From Ulva prolifera (Eukaryota > Chlorophyta > Ulvophyceae > Ulvales > Ulvaceae): DNA of 64,000 nucleotides. This document shows positions 21,318-63,943 of the stretch, in pieces. The stretch spans positions 3,775,921 to 3,839,920 of the forward strand of contig CM041200.1 of NCBI GenBank assembly GCA_023078555.1. The letters run 5' to 3'. A model generated the notes under the pieces. The model saw only the letters and a program-made list of their open reading frames with translations. It searched no databases and had not been told where the DNA came from. Made by a program: the position numbers and the translations under genes. Within the stretch, counting starts at the first letter, position 1. Each line of letters begins with the position of its first letter.

Positions 21318-21809
21318 TTATATCAGGTCGTCTGTTGCTGACGCCGAATTCTCACTGATCGGGGGACCAGCGGATGCAGGCTGATCATCCAGCATCAGTG
21401 GCCGCTGAGCATCTGGCAGCCGGTCTACCTGCCGCCTGGCACCAAAGGGAATTGCTTGCACTATGTGTCTTGGTGTGGATGCCGGGGTGGACACGGCATG
21501 TGCCGGCCGACGCAACCACATCAACAGAGCGCCCACCGCCACAGCCACCAAGACGAGCAGAGCCCACGCAGTATCTTGCAGCCCTTGGAAGTTGTGGCAT
21601 TCGGGGCACTTGGGGCATTCTTCGCCATCAGGACACTTCTTCATGCAGATGCTTTCGTTCGAGTTGCATACAATAGCTGCAGGGGGCATGTGTTTGGAAT
21701 AGTCTGTGCCTGGTATCAGGCCATGATTAAGGTAACACTGATTCCACGCCTTGCCACAGCTCCGCTGGCATTCCCTGCGGCCCTCGGCCATCAAACCCGC
21801 TGTCTCCAT
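21318..21809 (-). CDS. Cys-rich single-pass membrane protein, family copy 1
   Basis: One open frame of 163 residues starts at ATG 21809. Near the N-terminus it has the spacing C-x3-C-x6-C (CQRSCGKAWNQCY), a 22-residue loop, then C-x6-C-x3-C (CNSNESICMKKC). A second short Cys cluster follows (EECPKCPEC). One strongly hydrophobic helix comes next (WALLVLVAVAVGALLMWL), then a polar, Pro/Ser-rich tail of about 60 residues. There is no obvious signal peptide. The same mirrored cysteine pattern plus membrane helix occurs in two more minus-strand genes at 24.3 and 28.7 kb; this is the most divergent of the three. GTGTAG directly precedes the ATG, so an upstream exon cannot be excluded. Function is unknown; paired CX3C motifs elsewhere form disulfide-locked helical hairpins. 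Confidence 0.65.
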   Translation of the reverse strand: METAGLMAEGRRECQRSCGKAWNQCYLNHGLIPGTDYSKHMPPAAIVCNSNESICMKKCPDGEECPKCPECHNFQGLQDTAWALLVLVAVAVGALLMWLRRPAHAVSTPASTPRHIVQAIPFGARRQVDRLPDAQRPLMLDDQPASAGPPISENSASATDDLI

Positions 21810-22098
21810 CTACACCAAATGAAGTACACCCTGGCATCAGAATTACCACTGAGCCAATGACCGTGTGCACGTATCCAAATGGTCTTACAACCAAGTTTGG
21901 AGTACTTCTGTAAGGGGAGATCTGCAAGGTGTTGTGCAGTCAGCGATTGCAGGTCAAGCATCTCACCTTGTGCACGCAATCCGTGGCTGGGAAAGTCAAC
22001 GAATGCGGGGATCCGTCCACGTCAGTGCAGCTCTGAAACAGGCCCTGTTGCTACAGACAATGCACAGCTACCTACCGCTGCTCGACCTCATCCGAGGA

Positions 22099-22664
22099 CT
22101 ACTTGTGATCATCGCGGATGTTGCTGTGGATGTCGATGCGTTCGCACAGTGGCCAGGACGACAGGACGACAGGATAAACCGTGTGCAGCATGACCATCAA
22201 GTTTGATCGCGCCTGATCAGGTGGCGTCACGAACGGCATTGCCTCATGCATGTTGATGTCGGAGACATCTCGGAGTGCTGGTCGATGCGTGTGGTAAATG
22301 TCTCCGGACGTCACGCAGGACACCCAGGCCACCCATTTCAGCTTGCCGCACTAAAGCGTGGTCTAGCAGGATTGGACCTGCTTTGCGTGGGTTCAACAGT
22401 GTAGCGTTCGAACGCCATCTAAATAATTTCTGATCTCGTGCACAGCGAATTGTCTGTTTTTGTCAGTCACAGTGCTCCAAGCATCTTCTGGTCTTTGCTT
22501 GCGGCTCGATCACAACCATGGAAGTTACTCAATGAGCCACAATCCTTGCCTTCTGCTGAGTGAAGACATGACTGGGTGGGTGGCATGATGTCCACTGCAC
22601 TTACCTGACAGGGCAGACCGGCAGTGTGCACCACAGTCACAGGGATTCGCTTCTGCAGTCCCAT
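22099..22664 (-). CDS. Small unrecognised two-exon gene
   Basis: An ATG at 22664 opens a 20-codon exon that ends CTGTCAG|GTAAGTG, a strong donor. A TTTAG acceptor near 22352 leads in phase 0 into an exon reading GKLKWVAWVSCVTSGDIYH and on through a His/Met-containing stretch to the stop at 22099. The joined product would be about 105 residues. It carries no recognised motif. It lies between copies 1 and 2 of the Cys-rich family but does not share their cysteine spacing. More exons are possible on either side. Confidence 0.35.
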
Positions 22665-22699
22665 CTGCAGCTATGACTATCACGTATTATTACACGAGC

Positions 22700-23944
22700 C
22701 AGAAAGTAGCTTAAGCTCTGCAGCAGACAGGAATCGATCAGAGTGCAGTGTATGATGTACGTGCCTCAAGTTGCCATCAAGCCGGCATTGGCGAAATTGT
22801 CAGGCGATCAAGTGATCACTGTATGTCGACTGAATGTTGACGCGCCGGTTCTCAATGGATAGTAGGATAGTCAGCTATCATGCTGTATCTACAAGGGCAG
22901 CGCTGTCTGCACACCCGGGGGGCGGAGTGACCGGATGTCAAGCAGCGCACAGCCTGCTGGCATCCTCTGCATGACTATGCACAGCAATGTCACACGGTGG
23001 AAGACAGGGACGTTACTGCGCCCCTCTAGGGCACGAGCAAGTGGTGTAATGCATCTGATGATTCAGAACAACTGCATTTGGCGCCATTTGTCACAGGTGA
23101 TCATGTGATTCTTCAATGCTCAGGTAAATTGCGCCAACCCCTTGCGGAGTTCATTGTCATTTGATGAGGCTGGGATGCATATACAGTGTACCTGAGTGGT
23201 AGGTGACGCTCTTCGTGAATCTAGCAGGTAGGAACGGTGTGGGTGATGCCTGAGCACCCAATTGAGGACACTGTCACGGATGTGAAGGTGCACAGCACCG
23301 TGAGTCTGTGTAAACGCCATCTAGGCCTTTTGTGTGATGCCATGCATGCTCACAAGGAAAGAACACCAATACTTTACAGATGTGGACAGGGCGTGGGGTC
23401 TCGACGACGGTACCAGACCTGCTGCGGGCGCCCCGCCCCCCCTCTGTACCCACAGCAGTGGCCAACCGCTACCACGCCCAGAATCTGCTTGCAAGCGTCA
23501 AGGCACCACTGCTGGAGCCAACATCTGAAAACTCTCATAGAGACGCCATAATGCATTGATTTGCTGAGTATTTTCTGATGCGTCAAAAGCCTGCGGGCCT
23601 CATGCATGTGAGCGGCCCCATCCCGTGGACGTATGCCCATCTGTGTGCCCAGCCAGACGTTCTCGCACTGATCGTTGGTCCCCCTCTCCGCTGTATCGCC
23701 TGGTGGGTGCTCTGCCTGGTATGCACGTGTGGCTCCGCCTCATGCGACCCACGAATTCTGCATGCACGCCATTGCGATGTCCACTCATCCATGTTCACCC
23801 CGACATATGGTGCCCAACCGAGACGGATCGGACTGCAACTTGTACACATGCAACATGCACACACACATCAGGGGACATGTAAATCATCGACTGCTCACCT
23901 CGTCTTGTGCACCGCAATTCGCGGGCAAGGCGTGTGCGGCGGGC
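22700..23944. other. Intergenic stretch, nothing recognised
   Basis: Short, mutually overlapping ORFs only. I see no domain, RNA gene or extended repeat. Confidence 0.35.
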
Positions 23945-24342
23945 TTAATCACGACACCCTCGGCCCGCTCTGTCCCACAGGCTCTGGCACAACATCAACA
24001 CCACACTGGCGAGTAAGCCTGCCACGAACCAGCCCATGGCGACGGGAGCCATGCCTCCAGGCACGGCCGCAGCAACAGCAGTGCCAGTTGCGGTGTATGG
24101 GGATAGCTCCAGTGGCTGGTAGCGTCCTCTGCCACGATATGTAGGGGCATACGCTACACAGGCCCTGTGCGTAGATTGCCGTGCCATGCTTTCATGCATA
24201 CACTGAGACCTGCATTGCACGCCAAGGCAGCAACAGGGGCAGTCGGCGACGCGACGATTGTGCCTGCCACGAGGCCGGCCGCGGTGTAGCAGGCCGCCCA
24301 CGCTGTCCCGCAGGCCGAACGACAGAGCGCCAATGATTCCAT
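23945..24342 (-). CDS. Cys-rich single-pass membrane protein, family copy 2 (spliced or decaying)
   Basis: From ATG 24342 the frame reads LCRSACGTAWAACY (C-x3-C-x6-C), a 23-residue Ala/Gly/Val loop, then CNAGLSVCMKAW. The last cysteine of the C-x6-C-x3-C half is replaced by Trp. Unspliced, the frame stops at 24154 after 62 residues. A second frame continues the family similarity with TGTAVAAAV, then a hydrophobic helix (GWFVAGLLASVVLML) to a stop at 23945. A 53-nt GT-AG intron (24159-24107) would join both parts in phase 0 to give about 114 residues. Either this gene uses a very short intron or it has been frameshifted. Core DNA identity with copy 3 is high (about 60 nt nearly identical around the first cysteines), so they are recent paralogues. 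Confidence 0.55.
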
Positions 24343-25189
24343 ACTGTTGTGCGTGTGCGCAAAGTTTGCACGCGGAAGAGCGCCGATCGCAACAGAAGAC
24401 GGGCACGTGTTTCTTGATTGCTCGGAAAAGACTGTATATTTTGGAGATACGTCTGCCGGAGCTCCTGGAGGTTGTGGAATTACTGGAGAGCGAAGGGGTC
24501 TAAACACACATACTACAAGCTGCGTCGCAGAATCAGCTCCGCGAGGTAGATTGGGGCGGTACACCTGGCGACACGATGTCCGAGCGGTGAACGCTCCCAG
24601 TCCGGACCAGTACTGCACTAGTGCACGACCGGAGGCCCGCGCACTGACAATATGCATACCCATGCGCGTTTTGCTTATATACGTAAATGTGCTGCGCAAC
24701 GACGTGGATGTGACCCAGTGAGGACTGACAACGCGCCCAGACACGGCCCCATATGCCGCTAGCCCGGAGACAAATAGGAGACAAATCGGTTGCAGCGGCT
24801 GCAGTGATGCTAACCACGTGACTGCAGCTTGCTAGGTGGTCGGTGCACTGCGCAGTAGCAAACGGACGACGGATTCTGGATTGTAGCAATGGCTATATCA
24901 TAGTGAATCTTGTGTGCGTGCAACCGCCACATGTTTTTTAATTGTGTAGACAACATAACAGAGGAGATACCGTCGCAATGGAGGTCGTCTGCCTGTGACC
25001 AAGTCCGCCATATGACGGCCATGCGAACACTGAATCTTCATACTACCCCATTGCATGTGTCCGATGTGTGTACAGCTTCCGCAGCATGGCACAGGTGGGA
25101 GACCATTCGGGCAGGGTGGGGGTTGGGGCGGGCGCCCCCGACGGCCGGGTGGCCTGGCCGGGCGGCCTCGGGAGGCGCCGCTCCAGGTG

Positions 25190-25424
25190 CGACTGCGTCG
25201 TGGGCCTAAGCTGGTGGGCTGGGATGGGTGTATGTCTTTGTGGGGGGGGTCAGGAGTTGGGTGTGGGGTGCGGCTTGATTGTGTTTGTGGGGGGTGTCAG
25301 GGGCACTGTGGGTACTGCGTGCGCTGATCGTGGCGTGGGTGCATTGGACCGTGTCGGTGGTGTTGCTTTTGCGCTGCTTGCTGGTATTTCGGGGCTGCCT
25401 TCCTCGCCGCCTTGATCCCTGTGA
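25190..25424 (-). repeat. Diverged copy of introner-like repeat
   Basis: Reading the minus strand from 25424, TCACAGGGATCAAGGCGG is followed by GAGGAAGGCAGCCC and then a C/A-rich body. This resembles the consensus TTACAAGGACAAAGGCGG with GAGGCGGGCAGCACC. It is the most degraded copy. Confidence 0.45.
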
Positions 25425-25765
25425 CACAGATAGCATCCAAGAGGCATCTGCCAGCTTCAAATCTCAGACTGCATGCACTCTAGTTCTCGGCTGCAAAGTA
25501 CAACTTCCGCTGTAGCTACAGCGATACTCACTTGTTGCAGCCGAGAACCATCTACCACAGAGGGCCAGGTGGCACCACAGGAACTACATGCGGCACAAGT
25601 ATCAAGCTCACACAGACCTTGTGCTGGAGGTGTGAGACTGCGACAACTTCTATTGGGCACACGGTAACGGCCTGGTCCACCTAGCTAAGCACCCGCTGTT
25701 TACATGTCCGGAAATGATTGGTTTTGCAAGTTGTGTCACAGTCCTGCCGGATTAGGGGACGCACA

Positions 25766-25789
25766 TGTGTGTGTGTGTGTGTGTGTGAG
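25766..25789 (+). repeat. GT dinucleotide microsatellite
   Basis: About eleven uninterrupted GT/TG units lie just after GCACATGT. Confidence 0.85.
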
Positions 25790-27240
25790 CCCCCTGCAGT
25801 GTAGCTGCATGTTTTGTAGCTATTTGCATGTGATCCCAGTGCTGTACTTCTTATCAATTGATGCAGTGGAGGGTCAACTGCAGGCGGTGAGGAAGGAGCA
25901 GACAGCCTTCCCGGGCACCGAGGCTGAGGTGCGGTGGAGTGCTCCCATGCCTTCGCGACAAGCTTGCATGCAGGGGGGCTGGGTGGAAGACATGTCACAT
26001 GTGCAACCTTCCGGTCAAAGGGTTTCTGGTCGGCGTATCTTGTGATTGGTGGGTGAGGCGCATTCTGGGCGCTGTGTGCGGGCCCACCGACAGGCGTACG
26101 ATGATTTAACGGCTGGGTGTGCCCGGGTCAATGGTGTCTGCCCTACATGTTTATGATGAAGATGCCCAGTTGGTGATCTATGTTGTGTATACCCTCGGGG
26201 CTCTGAGGACTCAGCCCTAGAGGTTACAGTGCGGTGGCCGAGTGGTCTAAAACGTTTGGGGGTGTCACATGCACCGCTACGGCCGTACACCTCACGGCGC
26301 ATCTACTTCTACCTCTCAGGGTGCCCCACAATGCCCTGGCATTTGCTGAACATGTCCACGATGCTGCAGTGCGTGTAGCAGAGTGAATAACAATCGGACT
26401 GGAGGTGATAATCTCTGGAAATAGACTGCTGTCTCGCGCGGGCAGCCCGTATGATCTGCCTGTGAGACTAGAGCTGGACTGCACTTGTCATTCTCGGTAC
26501 ACAGCAAGCCAATCACGCTTTGCCCCCAACGACACCCGTGCCTGCACACAGGGCGCAGAATGATGTAATGCACACACTCAGTGTCCAGCAGTGCACGCCC
26601 TGTTGGCACCCTCTGCATGGCCATACTCAGCCCCGTCATACAGCCAAATGAAAGAGCCGTTGACTGGCTACGCCCGCAATCTGCAGCATTACACCGGTAA
26701 CATGCCACTGCTATCATGAATCTGCTGGACTAAAACTATCACGATGATCGCCATCTGACAAACCACAACACACATGGACCCATAGTCCAGTTTTTCCATC
26801 AGTCGGTCTGCAGCTGTTTCCAAGAGCCAGCATGCAGGGGCGTTGTGAACTTGTGATGTTCCCCTGAGCGGTGCCACAGAGTGCAGACATGCTGTTGCAC
26901 TCCAGCTACTGTCCACAAAGCAGGGCAACGTGTGTGCAACAGCTGTACATCAACACAGGCATGTAGTGGGGGGACACAGGGCGTGTGGCAGGGGCGCATT
27001 GGCAGCTACACGTCCACGTAGGACCGTGGCTTGCCTTGCATTGCACCACCAGCTGCTGATCCGACACTCCCATGTGGCCAGCCCTGCAACCTCCTTGCCA
27101 GAGCTACTGACGGTGGCACACATCTGGTGGACGGTGCGGAAACCCTTCCCCGTGGTGCTGTCAGGGGTCTTGATGCATCATGGTCATGGCAGGTCGTGCA
27201 GATGGTAGCATTGATGTTGCCACTCGGCCGGGAAGATGTT

Positions 27241-27638
27241 TTACAAGGACAAAGCAAGCGAGGCAGGTAGCACCGCAAGCAAGAACCAGGGGAACCGCAC
27301 ATCACGCAGCAAGCCACACAAAGCGCACACCAAAACACCCACGCAACGGCAGCACTCGCGCCGGACACAGCCACACAGCCACACAGCCACACAGCCACAC
27401 ACACGCCCACACCCACACGCCCACCCCCATCTGAACCCCGCCCACCAGCCAGGCGCACGGCGCCGGGAAGATGTGTACACAGACACACCTGTGCGTGTGT
27501 GGGTGTGGGTGTGGGTGTGTGGCGGTCTGAGATTCTGGGTGCGTAGTGTGGGTGTGTGTTGTGTGGGTGTCTGGGTTTGTACTTGATCTGCCTGCTTCTC
27601 TCGCGGTGCTGCCCGCCTCGCCGCCTTTGTCCTTGTAA
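27241..27638. mobile_element. Introner-like repeat with inverted ends (non-autonomous element)
   Basis: The left end reads TTACAAGGACAAAGC with a downstream GAGGCAGGTAGCACCGC. The right end, read on the minus strand from 27638, is TTACAAGGACAAAGGCGG with GAGGCGGGCAGCACCGC. The roughly 400-bp interior is C/A-rich on the left and GT-rich on the right, with CACACAGC-type short repeats. The flanking paralogue B lacks the insert. On the minus strand the sequence just outside is AAG|GTGAGTCTGTG at one end, and a pyrimidine tract CTTTGTCCTTG before CCGAG at the other, so the insert would sit inside a GT-AG intron. No transposase is encoded, so mobilisation would need an enzyme supplied from elsewhere. 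Confidence 0.55.
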
Positions 27639-27803
27639 CACAGACTCACCTTCCAAGCAGGTGCTGCTGAGCAGGGTCGAGCACATCACAAATCTGCTGC
27701 AGATCTGACTCACGAATTGTTTAGTCTGCCAATCTACAGCATGTACAAATGGAACGCTAGGCAGATAGCGTAGGCTACATCTTTCATGGCCTTTAAGTCT
27801 GGG

Positions 27804-27880
27804 CACACACATGCAGGCTTCCTCATTGTCCTGGCGGTGCTACCGGCCCCTCCGGCTTTGTCCCTGTAACACACACATGC
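27804..27880 (-). mobile_element. Short repeat insertion flanked by an 11-bp direct repeat
   Basis: CACACACATGC occurs at 27804-27814 and again, identically, at 27870-27880. Between them lie 55 bp which, read on the minus strand, begin TTACAGGGACAAAGCCGG and continue with the GGGGCCGGTAGCACCGCC motif shared with the 31.3-kb copy. The paralogous segment B has a single CACACAAATGC at the equivalent place (about 28259-28269). This looks like an insertion with target-site duplication. Confidence 0.6.
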
Positions 27881-28433
27881 CGGCAGGGACGTCCTGTGTA
27901 AATGGTTTCATGCCCGTCAAGTTTGAGACGTCATGATGATCAAGTGATCTGTCACAATTACAACATTTTACTTTACACAAGGCTCTCTTTTCTGTGAGAG
28001 CTCATGGCACTCCTGAAACTGCAATGATTGTCACGGCAGGTCGTGCAGATGCTGGCATTAACCCGCCACTCATGATCAGTGGGGAAGATGTGTGCACAGA
28101 CAAGGCAGCCAAGATTCACAGACACGCGTTTCAACCAGGTGCTGCCAGGCGCCTCAACTGCTGCGGATGTGAAGGACGATTTCTATAGTCCCCTGTCCTA
28201 CAGCATGCACAGATGGAAAGCTAAGCCTGCATCCTGCTCTGGCGCGTCGGAATTTGAGCACACAAATGCTGGCAGGAACGTGTCGTGTGAACAGGTCAGG
28301 TGCCTCAACTTTGATGCACCATGATTATCAATTGATCTGTCATTTTTACACCAGTCCCCCTGTAATGTCAAAGATTCTCCTCTGGGAGTCCACCTATGAA
28401 ATCAATGGCTAGACATTCCAATTATGCTTCACT

Positions 28434-28706
28434 TCAATGAAAATGCTTCCAGATGCTCCAACCGACGACGCCCGCACTGGCCACACCGCCTGCTACCAGT
28501 GCACCGACGGGCCCAAACATCGAGCCCTCAGCGACAGCCGTGCCGATGCACGCTGTCATGCATGTACCTTCGGCAGCGTTGCACGCCAAGGCGGCCGCTG
28601 GGGCAGCGGGCGCAGCGACAATCGTGCCTGCCACGAGGCCGGCTGCGGCGTAGCAGGCCGCCCACGCCGTCCCGCAGCCAGCATAGCAAAGCGATGTGGT
28701 AGCCAT
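28434..28706 (-). CDS. Cys-rich single-pass membrane protein, family copy 3
   Basis: A single exon from ATG 28706 encodes 90 residues. It contains LCYAGCGTAWAACY (C-x3-C-x6-C), a 23-residue Ala/Pro-rich loop, then CNAAEGTCMTAC (C-x6-C-x3-C). After a short linker comes a hydrophobic Gly/Val-rich helix (ALVAGGVASAGVVGWSIW) ending KHFH. It is the cleanest member: all six cysteines are present in the mirrored spacing, and there is no intron. No signal peptide is apparent, so topology is unclear. Related short CxxxC/CNAAxGxCM proteins without assigned function occur, as far as I recall, in other algae and protists. The paralogue at 24.3 kb shares almost identical DNA over the first cysteine motif. 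Confidence 0.72.
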   Translation of the reverse strand: MATTSLCYAGCGTAWAACYAAAGLVAGTIVAAPAAPAAALACNAAEGTCMTACIGTAVAEGSMFGPVGALVAGGVASAGVVGWSIWKHFH

Positions 28707-29798
28707 AGGTCTTGGATAATCCGTGTGAAGATGCCGCCTTTGTGAGTGCCCGTGCGCTCAAGCAGCGCCGACGTGGAAATCAGATAGCTGGGTATACGTA
28801 GCTGAAAAGGCCGACTGAGCAGACAGTCAAGTGGAGGTCACGCAGATACTGTTACCGGTGCACTGGGAAGCAAATTTCAGCGTCAGTCACGCACTACTGC
28901 CTGGCTCTGAGCACCCATCTACATGTAGTCCAGTTTGCCCAATACCTGCCAAATACACTATATAGAGTCGCTAGCCTGGCAGTTCATCTGCTCAGTCCAC
29001 CAGCATCAATGTCAATTGGTACATGGCATGGCTGAAGTGGCACAGAGACAAATCGCCAGATGATTGAGAGCTGGGATTGTCTCCCTTATTGTCTCCCATA
29101 TGCATCTTTCCTGGTGGGCTGCGTTGTATGGGGCAGTCCATTCTTTCAGTACCCTGTGCTGCGAGCTCAACCCTGTTGCTGATCATGAGAGGCAACAGCC
29201 CTCAGGGAGTCAACCTCTTCACACCCTGCGGCATGCACCACCTAGAGCCTGATGCAGATCATCTCATGAGCCGGATGATAAACTCGCAGATGAAGTGTCT
29301 CCAGTTGCAGATTTCCCGCCTGCTGCCCCAGCACCTGTGGGCCAGGCTGCCAAGGACTCTTTGTATGTGCTGTGCTTGCCACAAGCGCACCGGCGGCCAC
29401 TGCTGCAGCTGTGGCGCATCTTTGTCCGGAAAGGGGATGTGTGCCACATCAGCGAAGCCATGGAGACAGCTGGCTGGTAGACGACCATCATGCAGGGCAG
29501 ACAGCATGGTCGACCGCCCTAGGTCCCGGATTGTTTCAAGCTTGCTGTTGATCGGGCGGGGAGCCGTGTGCGGATCTGGGCTCTGCCCTTGGCAGCGGCG
29601 CATGTGGCATGCTGGCCGCGGGCCAGCACGAAAGCGGCGATTGGCATAGCAATTGGTCGATCAGCTTCTGCGGCATTCACATCTGGGGCAAAATTGAATG
29701 TTGCTCATGTACGAGTACAATGTTTCTGGACGGACGCCTTGCAAATGCGAAGTCGCTTCAAGCATTCAAAGTCGAGCACTGTGACAGACCGAGATGTG

Positions 29799-30136
29799 TT
29801 ACAAGGACAAATCCCGAGAGGCAGGCAGCACCGCAGGGCACAAACACACCCACCCCCGCTTGCGCCCCGCCCCGCAGCCCGGCACCAGAGCCCCGAAGGC
29901 ACACGCAGCACAGGTTACAAAGCCAAACACTCAGAGACACCCACAACAACCCCGGGGAGGCCCCAGCCTTCGCCAGCAAAACCCACCCCGGCCATCAGCA
30001 GGCCACACCACCCCGCTCACCCGCACACCCGTGCCCCCAATCCCAAACCCTAGCCCTCTCTCCCTGCACCCCGCCGCCGCGCTCCCACGGCGGGTCACAC
30101 GTCAACCGGTCAGAAAATCGGTAATGGGGCCATTCG
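29799..30136 (+). mobile_element. Introner-like repeat, plus-oriented copy
   Basis: The copy starts TTACAAGGACAAATCCCG, then GAGGCAGGCAGCACCGC, and has a C/A-rich body. It ends near GGTCAG-AAAATCGGTAATGGGGCC (30108-30132), which recurs in the opposite orientation at 30820-30848. Both termini are therefore shared with the 31.3-kb copy. Confidence 0.5.
29893..29994 (+). repeat. GC-rich direct repeat, copy 1
   Basis: The block containing GGCACACGCAGC, AACAACCCCGGGGAGGCCCC and AGC-AAAACCCACC recurs in the same orientation at 31394-31490, about 80% identical by eye. Confidence 0.6.
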
Positions 30137-34879: not shown

Positions 34880-36937
34880 TCAACCGATTGTATGCATGGA
34901 TGGAATCGGTAATTGGAGCCCAGTACTCTTGAGATGATTGAAGTGGCTAGCAAACGCAGAATAGAATGTTGGGAACACAATATATGGCAGACCATGCTTT
35001 TGTGCTACCTTCTGCACAATGGGTGCCAGGGCCGGGTAGTGCGTGTGTATCACTCCTGGAAATAAATGGTGCACGATTTGATAATTCAATCCACCACTGA
35101 AGTGTGTCCAGAAGAAGGAGCCATGGCAAAAGTCTGCAGATGTTCTGATCTGCTTCTCTGCCCAGCTGCCCTGGATGACTCCGTCACAATCCTTTTGGAG
35201 AAAGTCCACCTCTTCCACGACATGAGCGACCTGCACAAAAGCATCAACATGGGTGAATACAGTAGAAGAACATTTCACGCGTTGATCATGTCTGCGTGAT
35301 GTGATTTTGCACGCCTTTCTGGATTTGCCATGTTGGCAAGCTCTACAGGTACCTATCATGTACAAGGCCACAAGCGCTAGCAAGGCATTCTTGTTTGGAT
35401 GCTATGAAACGCCACACAGGGAACAAAATCAAACCTGGAACATAAATGCCAGAGTCCAGCCGCAAAATGCCAGTGCTGTCGCCCATAAGCCCAGCAGCTG
35501 ATGCAGCCCCCATTGGCCGTGGGCAAGAGGGGCAATCGCAAACCAAGAAATGAACAACGCTTTGCCGCCCCAGAATGATATGGCCTCATGGGTGGCAAAC
35601 TTTGTTACCTTGACAGGGCCAATGCTTCTGTTGGCCAGCGCTGCGAAGTCATCTACAAAAATAGATTTGAAAGCAAGAAGGCTGTATAGAATACCCAGGT
35701 AGAGATGTTGCCATCGATGGTGACTGGCATGTGGCTGTGTGGCTGCTACTCTACGAACATCAGATCCATCGGGCTTCACCCGAATGTCTGGGTCCTCTGA
35801 GACGACGTTCGTGAAAGCGTGGTGCCCCACAACATGCTGTTGCTTCCACATAAAGGAAGATGCACCGACAACATCCAGCGTAAGACCCGCGGCATGGCAC
35901 AATGTTGTGTTCCTGCAACACAGTCCTGCCGCCGTTGTTGTAGCCATAATCTTGGACACAGGCTGTTCGTTGATATGTAAGTATTTTCTACATGACAGTC
36001 GTCCACGCAAATGGAAACCAGTGGGCCTGATGAATCATGATCAGCAGAATTCAGTCTTGTATGGAACTCAATGGGCCAGATTCAGGTGGAGGTAGATTCG
36101 CACCTGCTGAACGCGCCATGATTTGCATCATGCTGAATGCAAATTCCGACTTCCGCCATGCTCACACCGAGGACAACAGCACCAGCAAGAGCGACCTATA
36201 GGCATGCACGGAGCTTTAGATTTGAATGCTCAGATTTGAATGCTCAAGTACGGTCAGAATGCATGCATAGAGGCAGGCAGGCACAGTGTCAGGAAGAAGG
36301 CTGCACACCATGTACGATTTAGTCACAAAGAATGCAATGAAGGCACTGAGCATCACAACCGAAAGGATGAGTGCTGTCTTGACATACATCGACACTGAGT
36401 ACCTTGGGTCAAGCTGCAGCACATGTATGTGTCACATTGATGCTGAGGCGACAGCAGACAGTGCCAGTGACCAGGCCGGAGTTCTACCTTGTTCTCATGG
36501 AAATACTCGCTGACGGCGTGCTTCAGCTCCTCATACAGCTTATCCTCATCGCCTTGCTGTTCATAGCGTGCCAGTGTTGCCACGCTCTCGACGTCTCCAA
36601 TTCTGAACTTCTCCAGCACAGCGCTGCATGGCTGCGACCATGTCAATGAACCCCATGCAAGCCAACCATGACACCAGGGTGGCTGATGTATCCTGGATGA
36701 ACCTGAGATGGATTCGTACCGGGCCTTTGGGGTGGTGTGATAGCTGTCAAATAATTGGGAACAGTCTCCTCCAGCCTTGACATAGATCATCGCCCCACCA
36801 GGGTGTCGAGGGATATACTGCGTGACATCGTATACCTTTCCATGCACAATGACCCAGCAGTCTTCTGGTGTGCAGTGCTTTGCGACGTCTTCAACGGCGA
36901 TTTTGGAAGGCTTGTCACGAGCAGACAGTTTGCACAT
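34880..36937 (-). CDS. Cytochrome b5-fused front-end fatty acid desaturase
   Basis: Six exons join in phase: 36937-36720, 36623-36488, 36413-36315, 36195-36104, 35912-35435 and 35230-34880. Together they give 1374 nt and 457 residues, normal for the family. An N-terminal cytochrome b5 domain has HPGG at residues 45-48 (heme ligand His45) and a second ligand at His67. The desaturase part has the three di-iron His boxes: HDANH at 173-177, HVVGHH at 208-213 and QIVHH at 392-396. The Gln that starts box 3 is the mark of front-end (delta-4/5/6 or -8) desaturases, which add double bonds between the carboxyl end and an existing double bond during long-chain polyunsaturated fatty acid synthesis in the ER. 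Four to five hydrophobic stretches surround the boxes. Box 3 has Val where Glu is most usual. Regioselectivity cannot be read from sequence. Confidence 0.93.
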
Positions 36938-38679
36938 TGCGAAAACAAAAATCGCTGCTTCAGAACGTACTCACCAGCTTGAGCTACAGCATTGTTCAAC
37001 AGTTCAGAACATGGCACATCCGGAACACCACGAACTGCCAAAGATGGCACGCTGCAGTACTGCCGTCAGCGGGTTGCCGATCCCGAGCGCTGGCACAAAC
37101 CGCGCTGACCAGCCGTCACAGAACTCTCGCATGGGTAGTGAGCAGGCCGCTAGCAGTGTACGCTTTTATTTTGTCGCGCACCTGCGAGCATGCCAGACAC
37201 AACCCGTGTAGCCATCAAATCATGCAACGCGGCAGGTCAGCGACCGAGGTTGTGAACATGTACCTACAAACGAGACCGGTGCAACAAGCGAATTACTGGC
37301 CGACATGATGACTCCATACTTTAGGTTGACCCCGGGCGCCATATCTACCGGTCAACTGCTAGCACAGAAAACGATTGGGATCGGCATCGAGCATCCTAAG
37401 TCACCTTCTATGGAGGCAGACATTCATTCCGGAATGCTCGCCTCGCACCGAAGAGATGAGAAACCTCTGATGTATGTGATCTGATGCGACATCAGATGCA
37501 TGCACCGTGAGCTACGTGCTCGTTTCGGTCAAACTATACCGCAGTCAAATAGCTGAATTCGCCAGGCAGAGGTGGCCGACGCACATTCAAGGCGATGGGA
37601 TGTCGTTCCCTTGTTCAGCAAGGAGGCGGGGCTCGCCTAAGTCTAGAAGGATAAGAGTACGCAGGCGATATTTGAGCACTCAGTGTGCACAGCCTCGGCC
37701 TACGCGCTCCTCCACGAGACCTGTAGTCCAGCCGGCACGACGGCTAGTGCTGTCAGCGCATGTGCAGGTGTATCTCGGCATCGTAAGTTATTTTCTGCAG
37801 TCATGCGGATCAGCCGCCATCGCCAGCCAGGCCACCGCTACCTGCACAGGCACCAATCACCGTCCAGCAGCGCACACTGAGATCACCCCAAAATTGTTTG
37901 CGACGGAGCGGGCGTGCTCTTATTATCCGCTATGATCATGCTGCTTTGCCATGTGGTGTTTGTGCCCATGAATGCAATGGAAACGGGAGCATGATCGTTG
38001 TGGCCACCTGGAAAAGCAGGTTTGCCAGCGCTGCCTTCGGTGTTAATGGGTCATGGCAGGGGGTGCCAACCAGTTAGCACCAGTCGCCTTGTTGAGCACC
38101 GGCACCATGCCAGTGTGCCTCAAAGGACGAAGCATGGTGATGGGGTACAGGTAGATTCCATCACCAAAGGCATCATGTTGGACCGTGAACACACAGCACA
38201 CTTGCACGTATAGACAGTGAGAAGACAATCCCTGAACTAGTAGCACCTTGTCTAAGATAGCAACAGACAGCATGGCATGCTGCAATCACAGCATGATGCC
38301 AGCAAGTCTTGAACAATCTCGTAGCAAGGGTGTTTCCGACAACATGCTACATAATTGTCGTTGACATGAGGCCCAACGCATCATCCGAAGGTCGAAACTG
38401 TACCTAGAGTCAGTGATCATGAACACCATGCAGCCTCTGCATGTTACATGTCAAGTCGAAATCTCTAACAAAATGTGCCATGCACTTTCAGGAGCTTAAG
38501 AGTACAGACTGATTACTCTGCACATGCATGTACCATGTCATTACAGTGTGTCGGAACGTGAGCACTACCGCATGGCAGAAATCTCTAGGTTGCATGGAGT
38601 TATCAGGGAAACTTCAGTACACGAAAGTAATCATCAGCGGAGCTTCGGAGACCACTGACGGCCACATTCTAGCATGCAT
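36938..38679. other. Intergenic stretch, nothing recognised
   Basis: This lies upstream of the desaturase and downstream of VTC4. Only short unsupported ORFs are seen, including a 142-codon plus frame at 37507-37935 of biased composition with no motif. Confidence 0.45.
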
Positions 38680-41600
38680 CTAGCTGCTGGAAGGGAAACA
38701 ACTCGACATAAGAAAGGCAAAATCTTGTTGTTTGGCAGTCATCGTCAGGATGAGATCATGCACAGAAAGAATGAAGATTGCAAGCAGGGCTATCGCCACA
38801 ATCATGGCCAAGCACAGTGGTCCCCTGCGGTCATCAATGATGCCATCAATAGTGAGTGCAATCATCTTGCTGCGCCATAAGAACAGTGCCAGCGCATAGA
38901 AGCAGAGCACCATTGCCAGCGGAAGGAGAATCATGCAGATCACTTCCACAGATGCAACCTCACCACCTTGCCTCCCATTCCTGCACGCAACAATTCACCG
39001 TTTCACGTGATCAATTCTGTCACCAGGGAATCAAGGATCCAATCGACCAAGGTATCAGCAGCAATTCCTCCACACTTGCATGCGTGTAGTGCTGTCATGT
39101 GTGCACAGCAGTGTTACATCACAATCATCATATGGTCATCCACATTGGCTAGCATTGCCAATGTCACCATTCATTAACCTACATAGAGACTGAGCTACGT
39201 GGTCTGTTGTGCAAACAAAGGGAAAGGTGCAGGCTCAGCTGCAGGCTCATGAACGCATGCCACAGTGTTGCATGCATGTTGATGTCTGATACACACCGAT
39301 CTGCTGTGGCTGCAAATCCAAGTAGAGCTGCTGCAATAGACCCAATGGTGACGGCCATATGCAGCCAGCTGAGGAATGTCCGCTCGTTAGCGAAGAACGT
39401 CTTGGGCTCCAGCTTCATGGGTGTAGAGCGCAGACGTGGTTTATAATTTCCGACCATCCGGTCAAAAAAGTTGAGCACAGGAGCTCCCCCTGGCTGAATC
39501 CACGCCGCGCTTCCAGCCCCTGTACCGCACAACCAGGTGATTTTATGTTCAGCACGGCAGTACGAGATGCAACAGGGTGCTATGTCTAACACCAAGTCCT
39601 GCAGTGAACTGAGCACGCGCACTTTCATCAGCAGACTGATGGAAAATGTCTAGAATTGCCCCATGCCGCCGGTGGAGTGGATGAGAAACAGGCAGTAATC
39701 GGCCGCAGGATTGTGGAGCCGCTGCGGCGCTAGCCGCTGCCAGCACTGGCTCCATGTCAGCACATGCCACCATCGTCTTCTGCAGGCTTTGATCATCAAT
39801 CCAATACGGAACAGCCTGCATAGATCCAAGAAAAAGGATTTCAAAAGAGCGCAACATGGGATCACAAAGCAGTGCAACATTGTGTCGTCAGAGCTGATGC
39901 GAGCCTCATGACACCAGAGCGGCCTCAGGACCATCTACTGCTCAGAGACACCACTGCACAGTACAGAACTTGGCATAGTTTTTTGGTCGCAGGTGGTCGT
40001 CCACTCCACCAAATATGACATGGTATCGTGGCGCTCCATCTGCAGTGATGCTTATCGATGACCCGGTGCACACCTGCACATCTCGAGGGAACAGCGTAGC
40101 TGTCCCTTGAATGAACTTGGAGAACTTGTGAACCTCAGCACAAAGGTCCGTATTCCGCCCAACGAGGTCTGTCACCCATGTTGGCTCTTCCTCGCCTTCT
40201 GGCAGGCTGAGCTTCACTTCCAACACAGCATGTGGAAAGCTGGTCACCTCTGTTCGGCTCCAAGGTTGCTTCTTTTCGTCTCGGCGCCTGAATTTGGCTT
40301 ATATATTGAGAGTCGGAGCCATTGCAAGAATGCCCATGCTGCTTTCCTTCCATTGTGAGACATCCTAACTACACGATGTAAGAAGAGCAGCGCAAAAAGA
40401 GCACGCAGCATGCCTGGTGTGGATGCCAGAAACAACACTGCCCGTGAATCACTGTACAAGCTCTGAACATTTGGGTCCATGGCACAGTGAGGCCACATAG
40501 CCACAGCACCATGATGCCAGCGGCATCATCGATATCGCAATGACCATGGCCGTACATCCAGCAAGGCAGACCATATGGCCACCAACTGCTACAGATGGAG
40601 ACCTTCACATGTACTGTGTCAAGGGCAGTGCTTATGGGGCGTTTGTTAGCGAAGCGTCGCAGTGGGTAGTGGAAGCTACACACCATGCCTTCAACTCAAT
40701 CTCCTCAATCTGTGGATCGTCAGAGCTGTTCTGACTAGAACCGTCGCCTGTAGCCCTGCCTGCTGATGTTGACCCAGCTGTCACGTCCTCCCTCAGCTCC
40801 CGGAACATGCGCAGATTCGTGTCGAGCGAGATGCGCACAGTGGCATCGAATGGGATCTGGAATGCAACCCGGTGGTACTGTGTCCGCGTCATGGGCCGTA
40901 GCAGCTTCGACTGCACTGCTTGCTGAACCTCCTGGAAGAGCACGCGAGTACAACTGATGTCTGCGTCAGACCGCCCCTCTGACTTGAGCTCAGCCTCCAT
41001 CTGCATAGCACACAAACTCTGAAAACTATGAAGTAGGCACCTGCATGTGTGGTGACAAGCAAGCACTGATCGCCCAGGGCAGCACTGTGGGAAAGGCTTG
41101 ACAGTGTGGCGTGCGGCGGACAGTTACGGCTGAGTATATCCAGTCCTGACCTGTCAGCATGGATGCTCAGAAAACGTCTGGGCCCCACCTGCGACCAGGT
41201 GTAGTGGCCGTTGAGGTACGGCAAAACATTAGCCTCCTTCAGTACAAACCTCTCCTTCACGCTTGTTTCGCCTTTCCAGCCCTCCCGGTGGGTCTTCCGC
41301 TCAACAAAGACGATCGAGGGATCTCCAGATCCATACCAGCGAAGCCGGATAGCGATCGCATCGGGTCGCTTGTCCAAACGACCATGATACAGCTCGCAGT
41401 TCACATTGTCGAGATAGACTGAGTTAACCAGCTGGGCATCCCCGTGAAAGTTACTTGCATCAAACTGGAACACGGGCAAGTGCTGCAGCACAGTGTACTT
41501 GACCCGGGATACATCTTGAGACTTGACCCAGAACTTGCGCGTCGTGCGCACGAAACCCTGCACATGACAGCAGGTAAAACTCCAGGGCCACCGAGGAGGC

Positions 41601-42881
41601 ACCGACTGGTTGCTCTTGAAGCTCACAGCAACACGGCAGGATTTGCAACAGCCAAAAATAACACAGGCCATCACGCCATACCCACAAGGACGTCCGCGGA
41701 GCACCCGGGGGCAGACAAATAAGAGGTCGGACCTGGGCAGCATCTTCGTTTTTTACACCCGAGGCATCCCCCCGCAGCTTGGAGAACACATCGGAGAGCA
41801 TAACAAGTTCTTCAGAGTAATCCCCTGACAGCCATTTTTCTCGATGGATCCAGTTGGCATAGAACGCGTGCACACGCATGTCTGGGATATTCTTGTCATG
41901 TTTCTTCAGGATCTTGTGCAATCCAAGGTAGTTGATGTTGACATATCTACACATGCAGCGACAGCTTGTGGGTGTGTGTAGGACACAATTGTCAAGGTAT
42001 CGATCATTGGCGCGCCAGGGTGTTATATAAATGTAGGAGCCAATCTGTACACATCCATGCAACCTATGGATGCGTTGTTAAAACGTGAAAGAAGAATATG
42101 AGGATGAAAGCGGCCTGACGGCAAATTGGAAGCAGTATCGGTGATATCGGTCTGCGATCAGTCCAGTAGAAGATCCGCACTTCTCAATTTTGAGGAACCT
42201 CTCGCCAAGACGCTCAGCTTGGTTCAGCAGTTCAGCACCTTCTGTCCCATGTAGTTCTCTTTCAGAATTGATGATGGCCAACAGCCGATTAACATCCTCC
42301 CGAAATTGCAGCATGACCTCATCTGTGCTGCTGCTGACAAGATGAACCTGCACTCACTCATCCGTGAACATGCAGCATGTTTGGACGAGGAGCACAAGAT
42401 AGCAAGCATATATGATGGGATGTACGTGACGAGCTGGGTTTCGAGTTATCTGGCACATCAGATGTCACGCAGTATGACATCGGCACTGATGGACACACCG
42501 CATCCTCAAACACACGGCTGAAGATGAAGTCGACTTCTGGCTCTGGGAAGCTAATTGAAGTTTGTCGGCTCTCAATGGTGATCTGCCCCTGTGCACGGTC
42601 ATGTTCTATGGCCTCCTTCAAACGAGTGTATGGGATGTACCTACATAGCAACCGTTTGAATACTGCCAACCGGACAATTCCCTACAATCGGTTGGCCAGC
42701 ATAAATCCAAAATTGTCCTGAAAGATGACGAGTTCCGTGCTCTACTAAGCGTGACAAGTGCGTGCAGCTCCCAGCTGCATGCACGCTTCAGAATAGCTCC
42801 GCACCGCCCAGCGAATGTCGAGTCCCCTGACGCGACCTCCCTGCGTTCATGTTCTTCGATGTATTCTGAGAAGTTTGTCAT
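38680..42881 (-). CDS. VTC4: Vacuolar transporter chaperone 4-like polyphosphate polymerase (SPX-TTM-DUF202)
   Basis: Exons in phase: 42640-42499, 42347-42181, 41946-41733, 41557-41189, 41000-40689, 40247-40074, 39815-39623, 39519-39297 and 38980-38680, preceded by a first exon from ATG 42881. Total is about 710 residues, close to yeast Vtc4. The SPX domain is shown by [11 protein letters not shown] and by [12 protein letters not shown], the basic inositol-pyrophosphate site. The TTM polymerase domain has the paired basic/acidic strands: [31 protein letters not shown] and YAVLEVKL-like PHAVLEVKL. It ends with the [13 protein letters not shown] motif. A C-terminal DUF202 domain follows ([15 protein letters not shown]) with three membrane helices. 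Vtc4 uses ATP to make polyphosphate and feeds it into an acidic vacuole or acidocalcisome. The join between HERRE (end of exon 1) and the YIPYTRLK exon is unresolved. The 40688 donor appears to be GC. Confidence 0.92.

Positions 42882-61056: not shown

Positions 61057-63943
<2,887 letters not shown>

Follow-up and report, generated by a model that had tools for sequence, protein, structure and literature searches.

Does a 7.4-kb segment of the Ulva prolifera genome, in which one cysteine pattern recurs three times, once incomplete, in the same orientation, encode a protein family and, if so, of what kind? The segment lies in a 64,000-nucleotide (nt) window of contig CM041200.1 (positions 3,775,921 to 3,839,920 of assembly GCA_023078555.1), the window being the whole stretch of DNA analysed here. 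The initial annotation had listed three minus-strand open reading frames (ORFs; 21809-21318, 24342-23945 and 28706-28434), each thought to encode six cysteines in mirrored order followed by one hydrophobic helix. We found that this description holds for the first and third copies but not for the second, and we consider it about an even call that this is a small tandem gene family for membrane-anchored helical hairpins with a disulfide clasp, proteins of a kind already known although little understood. The three copies are as follows.

21318 to 21809, minus strand: copy 1, six-cysteine putative hairpin domain and hydrophobic helix, open from ATG to stop, 163 amino acids (aa)
24154 to 24342, minus strand: copy 2, five of the six cysteines, 62-aa ORF, 86% identical to copy 3 over 102 nt
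28434 to 28706, minus strand: copy 3, six-cysteine putative hairpin domain and C-terminal hydrophobic helix, open from ATG to stop, 90 aa

To establish whether the copies are related, we compared them at the protein and DNA levels. Across all three, 18 core positions are invariant, 13 of which are not cysteines. Copies 2 and 3, previously described as near-identical in DNA, are somewhat less alike than that, as their identity falls from 86% over 102 nt to 77% over 153 nt. The ratio of nonsynonymous to synonymous substitution rates (dN/dS) between them is 0.31 in frame (49 codons; bootstrap range 0.13-0.73, 1000 resamples) versus 1.17 and 1.46 when the remaining two frames are read, and their differences fall 9, 8 and 18 times on codon positions 1, 2 and 3, respectively. 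Purifying selection thus acts on the core common to copies 2 and 3. The last 12 codons, which cover the second motif, are less constrained (dN 0.50, dS 1.28, from few sites). We also simulated 300 sequences of 64 kb under a first-order Markov model, allowing loops of 20-26 residues. The full six-cysteine pattern occurs twice in the window compared with once across all 300 simulations, and a five-cysteine version three times compared with 0.107 per simulation. Scaled from that one simulated event to the 88.9-Mb genome, about five six-cysteine matches would be expected by chance, so the case rests on the clustering, the 13 common non-cysteine positions and the in-frame dN/dS. Read from the DNA, the three copies are a genuine small tandem family under selection with two intact members. 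The local family proposed in the initial annotation is therefore real, but rather than as "expanding" it is better described by one old split, which set copy 1 apart, and one younger duplication giving copies 2 and 3, of which copy 2 has since been altered.

Copies 1 and 3 share the order C-x3-C-x6-C, loop, C-x6-C-x3-C. The cysteines of copy 1 are C14, C18 and C25 followed by C48, C55 and C59, with 22 residues between the triplets, and those of copy 3 are C7, C11 and C18 followed by C42, C49 and C53, with 23. The N terminus of copy 1 is polar by hydropathy and by eye, whereas in copy 3 only six residues precede the first cysteine. Copy 1 has one strong predicted membrane helix (about residues 81-99; peak hydropathy 2.54 at residue 81), directly followed by two arginines (RR) and a polar tail of about 60 aa. 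The earlier description of this copy as divergent and long-tailed was borne out, its synonymous sites being saturated relative to copy 3. Copy 1 alone carries additional cysteines at residues 65, 68 and 71 (CPKCPEC, window 21590-21620), in the interval between the hairpin and the membrane helix, for a total of nine. The hydrophobic helix of copy 3 (about residues 63-86) is weaker than that of copy 1 and ends about 5-10 residues before the C terminus.

Structure prediction, which the initial annotation had proposed as a check, returned a helix-loop-helix for both intact copies. For copy 3, AlphaFold2 placed helices at residues 4-21, 37-61 and 67-89, i.e., a helix-loop-helix and a C-terminal helix, with predicted local distance difference test (pLDDT) scores of 74-88 in blocks over residues 1-50 and about 41 past residue 60. 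For copy 1, helices were placed at residues 2-28, 43-58 and 74-99, with block scores of 81-91 for residues 11-60. Cysteines at positions i, i+4 and i+11 share one helix face, and in an idealised antiparallel two-helix model none of 49 spacings fitted better than 3/6, which tied with its reverse and gave Cβ distances of 3.5, 4.0 and 4.0 Å for the three nested pairs. A three-disulfide clasp of the hairpin is therefore plausible within this model. The suggestion that the mirrored spacing suits a disulfide-closed hairpin stands in that the spacing fits and the helices are predicted, but the mirror itself is unnecessary, and as such does not prove a hairpin, because an unmirrored arrangement fits the model slightly better.

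Copy 2 is not the full six-cysteine membrane protein that had been supposed. The 398 nt of the span 24342-23945 (2 mod 3) cannot form an ORF. From its ATG, the frame of copy 2 ends at a stop at 24154, after 62 aa and before any C-terminal hydrophobic helix, and Trp (codon TGG) takes the place of the sixth cysteine, leaving five. The hydrophobic stretch nearby is the end of an ORF in another frame (24406-23945). Two further segments bear on this arrangement.

24086 to 24180, minus strand: 95 nt of copy 2 that copy 3 is proposed to lack, placed by eye, with the length computed by script
23945 to 24085, minus strand: hydrophobic stretch in a shifted frame 3′ of copy 2, possibly corresponding to the copy 3 tail, but with weak similarity as assessed by shuffling

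The 95-nt segment is flanked by two GGC positions, and its length (2 mod 3) would explain why the hydrophobic stretch further downstream is read in another frame, although its placement depends on weak downstream similarity to copy 3. The tails of copies 2 and 3 look much alike by eye, but we call this likeness weak because 100 of 2000 shuffles reached the same alignment score. We also considered splicing, and found 47 GT-AG introns of 40-260 nt that would open the copy 2 frame to the downstream stop; none of the 47 restores the full six-cysteine pattern. The 44- and 53-nt candidates among them look short, since the sole intron measured in the window, that of an HSP70 gene, is 232 nt long. On the evidence of its frame and alignment, copy 2 duplicates copy 3 in altered or degraded form; it may encode a short soluble protein or be a pseudogene.

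To look for further members, we searched the whole genome (88.9 Mb, 44 contigs). Protein searches returned nothing besides the three copies below an E value of 0.1, and a DNA pattern for the second half of the core matched 42 places, of which, once all were translated, only the three known copies carried the first half; these searches may miss members whose short core is interrupted by an intron or lacks the CN and CM residues. Outside the genome, no relative was accepted from prokaryote, viral, plasmid, phage, Pfam, NCBIfam, PHROGs or PDB-sequence searches, scans that key on short stretches and may miss distant relatives. Bacterial and archaeal genomes yielded 170 stretches, none confirmed, and a further 28 DNA-pattern matches, while phage and plasmid records searched with copy 3 gave no match. 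Viral contigs were scanned with the copy 3 protein, an alignment of the core, three DNA patterns and an approximate consensus. One DNA pattern gave 35 translated frames from at least 120 viral loci, which by eye were cysteine-rich or unrelated; another gave 16 frames, the only one fitting the full spacing being a Cys-Gly-Thr-rich repeat protein. In addition, 22 matches were translated (2 viral and 20 from the bacterial and archaeal pattern matches), and the upstream half was present in none. We met no description of algal proteins of this sort in the open-access literature, among the matches listed for the cysteine formula and the family names.

The surrounding window contains recognisable genes. 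Of nine ORFs scanned, five carry Pfam domains (HSP70, cytochrome b5, TerC and VTC). The HSP70 gene, which we take from its C terminus to be of the plastid type, has exons within 61999-63940 (Pfam E values 6.8e-116 and 3.8e-89) and a GT-AG intron at 62857-63088. A VTC domain of the polyphosphate polymerase type lies at 40892-41752 (E value 1.7e-27). At 35432-36970, a cytochrome b5 exon (E value 1.9e-19) is followed by a desaturase-like ORF with a histidine box visible by eye and no Pfam match; the two together probably encode a front-end fatty acid desaturase. A repeat about 65 nt long (27236-27300) is dispersed in the genome, recurring with 97-100% identity at 39 further scored places (952 genome candidates at first look, 40 scored), and related copies lie at 27600-27642, 27831-27873 and 29792-29846. 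No Rfam family or tRNA was detected in the window. In the genome as a whole, RuBisCO small subunit genes occupy two loci, both on large contigs, and the match to each falls into two parts, as an intron would cause. Since a nuclear small subunit gene marks the green lineage, the genome is probably a nuclear one of that lineage.

We propose that copies 1 and 3, as intact genes, and copy 2, as an altered duplicate, all encode small helix-loop-helix hairpin proteins, in which, for copies 1 and 3, the hairpin would precede a C-terminal membrane helix. Each hairpin helix is predicted to carry three cysteines on one face, and the two stripes may pair as C1-C6, C2-C5 and C3-C4, which in an oxidising compartment would clasp the hairpin with at most three disulfides. 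In copies 1 and 3, basic residues directly follow the membrane helix, which speaks for a hairpin that faces the lumen or the outside and not the cytosol. By analogy with an aphid peptide, BCR3, which has the same cysteine formula and damages bacterial membranes, the hairpin might conceivably act at a membrane surface, either on microbes or in a small structural or stress role at the cell surface or in the endomembrane.

Several observations weigh against this proposal. AlphaFold2 was given the three sequences only as input, and mean pLDDT was low (65.3 for copy 3 and 67.5 for copy 1). The best fit of the two-helix model lay at 7.5 Å, the smallest axis distance allowed, and its residual was near 0 for an unmirrored second helix versus 0.16 for the mirrored one. 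In copy 3, hydropathy is alike in the loop (1.84 at residue 24) and the C-terminal helix (1.70 at residue 63), which makes its membrane anchor less certain. TGTAA is a green-algal polyadenylation word; it occurs 84 nt past the stop of copy 3 but was not found within 400 nt past copies 1 or 2. No N-terminal signal peptide is evident in copies 1 and 3 by hydropathy and by eye, although an upstream exon is possible, and the algal copies differ in this from BCR3. Finally, the tail-anchored layout of copy 3, together with this lack of an evident signal, would expose the hairpin to the reducing cytosol, in which disulfides are hardly to be expected. This last point leads to the reading that the copies are cytosolic tail-anchored proteins with reduced or metal-binding cysteines, for which the short distance between the copy 3 helix and the C terminus also speaks. 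We consider it unlikely, as the roughly 60 residues that follow the helix of copy 1, beginning with RR, argue for a cytosolic tail and a lumenal N-terminal domain, and the cysteine spacing suits nested disulfides in the idealised model.

A second alternative, homology to BCR3, takes up the "antimicrobial-like" character suggested in the initial annotation. Bacteriocyte-specific cysteine-rich peptide 3 (BCR3) of aphids has the formula CX3CX6CX21-25CX6CX3C, with its bonding unknown (PMC9604261). The pea aphid peptide, with 86 aa including a 23-aa signal peptide, is similar in size to the algal copies and is expressed in bacteriocytes, and three further BCR genes of aphids are clustered within 20 kb (PMC3574423). 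With synthetic refolded BCR3 at 5 μM, no colonies of E. coli remained and membrane permeability rose (PMC6594739). Copies 1 and 3, with loops of 22 and 23 residues, conform to this formula, whereas copy 2, with Trp for the sixth cysteine, does not, and the C-terminal hydrophobic helix sets the algal copies apart. The term has a precedent in BCR3, but by analogy of cysteine spacing, which does not demonstrate activity. That the copies are secreted or surface antimicrobial hairpins homologous to BCR3 would agree with the common formula and loop range, the killing of E. coli and the clustering of the aphid genes. However, we regard it as improbable, since the copies have no evident signal peptide and, although copy 2 has a net charge of +2, the whole proteins of copies 1 (-2) and 3 (-1) carry no net positive charge. 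Small divergent clusters are nonetheless typical of antimicrobial peptide genes. Against homology also stands that the authors of the BCR studies report BCRs from aphids only (PMC9604261, PMC6594739, PMC3574423).

A third possibility would place the copies in the mitochondrial intermembrane space, as twin-CX3C (small Tim) or CHCH proteins that Mia40 oxidises and that a tether holds at the inner membrane. Small Tim and CHCH proteins are disulfide-closed helical hairpins with two CX3C or CX9C motifs and four cysteines, and the CX3C motifs of small Tims lie 11-16 residues apart. The algal copies have three cysteines per helix (CX3CX6C), and their CX3C motifs are separated by 37 residues in copy 3, with two cysteines in between, and by 36 in copy 1. 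Neither zf-Tim10_DDP nor CHCH appeared among Pfam results up to an E value of 10 (filters drop most above about 0.1), no PDB sequence matched, and structural scores were within the range common for unrelated helical models. The twin-CX3C kinship drawn by the initial annotation is thus not upheld, and this location seems quite improbable. That the copies are chance ORFs or pseudogenes without function is very improbable indeed: the state of copy 2 and the roughly five six-cysteine matches expected by chance (one simulated event scaled up) would agree with it, but the in-frame selection between copies 2 and 3, the confinement of all three found members to 7.4 kb and their 13 common non-cysteine positions do not.

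Returning to a tandem family of membrane-anchored hairpins, we compared it with other known systems. Plant alpha-hairpinins are secreted helical hairpins with CX3C motifs, some of them antimicrobial; they share the hairpin and the CX3C motif with the algal copies, but differ in their four cysteines (two disulfides), short loop and secretion. An uncharacterised eukaryotic family annotated as "zygote-specific class V copy B" presumably has the same core, common in fungi and invertebrates and present in algae (C-x3-C-x6-C-x23-CN-x5-C-x3-C), its members being mostly without a membrane helix. Copy 3 aligned without gaps to an approximate consensus, with 31 of 58 positions identical and the six cysteines in register, a resemblance that we take as a lead. 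Searches for the presumed PANTHER number of the family brought up no paper, and six of its peptide fragments had no match in the literature. The name is listed among Daphnia magna hypoxia genes in one report (PMC9548574). The Chlamydomonas genes ZYS1 and ZYS3 were also considered; ZYS1A/B are called putative transcription factors, which lends no support to a link between the gene name and the family.

The likeness to BCR3 is one of cysteine spacing. It is possible, if distinctly doubtful, that BCR3 and the algal proteins share an ancient eukaryotic ancestor, itself a disulfide-clasped hairpin. Aphids would then have added a signal peptide and turned the hairpin against their symbiont, while in the alga the protein would have stayed anchored in the membrane, in one form with a long tail in the cytosol. 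A six-cysteine formula published for a symbiosis antimicrobial, and termed aphid-restricted by its authors, now occurs in a green alga, probably on a protein with a membrane anchor. The algal copies make the origin of BCR3 testable, as an old eukaryotic hairpin or one that arose de novo, and provide a protein family that has no Pfam model with a small, easily tested case.

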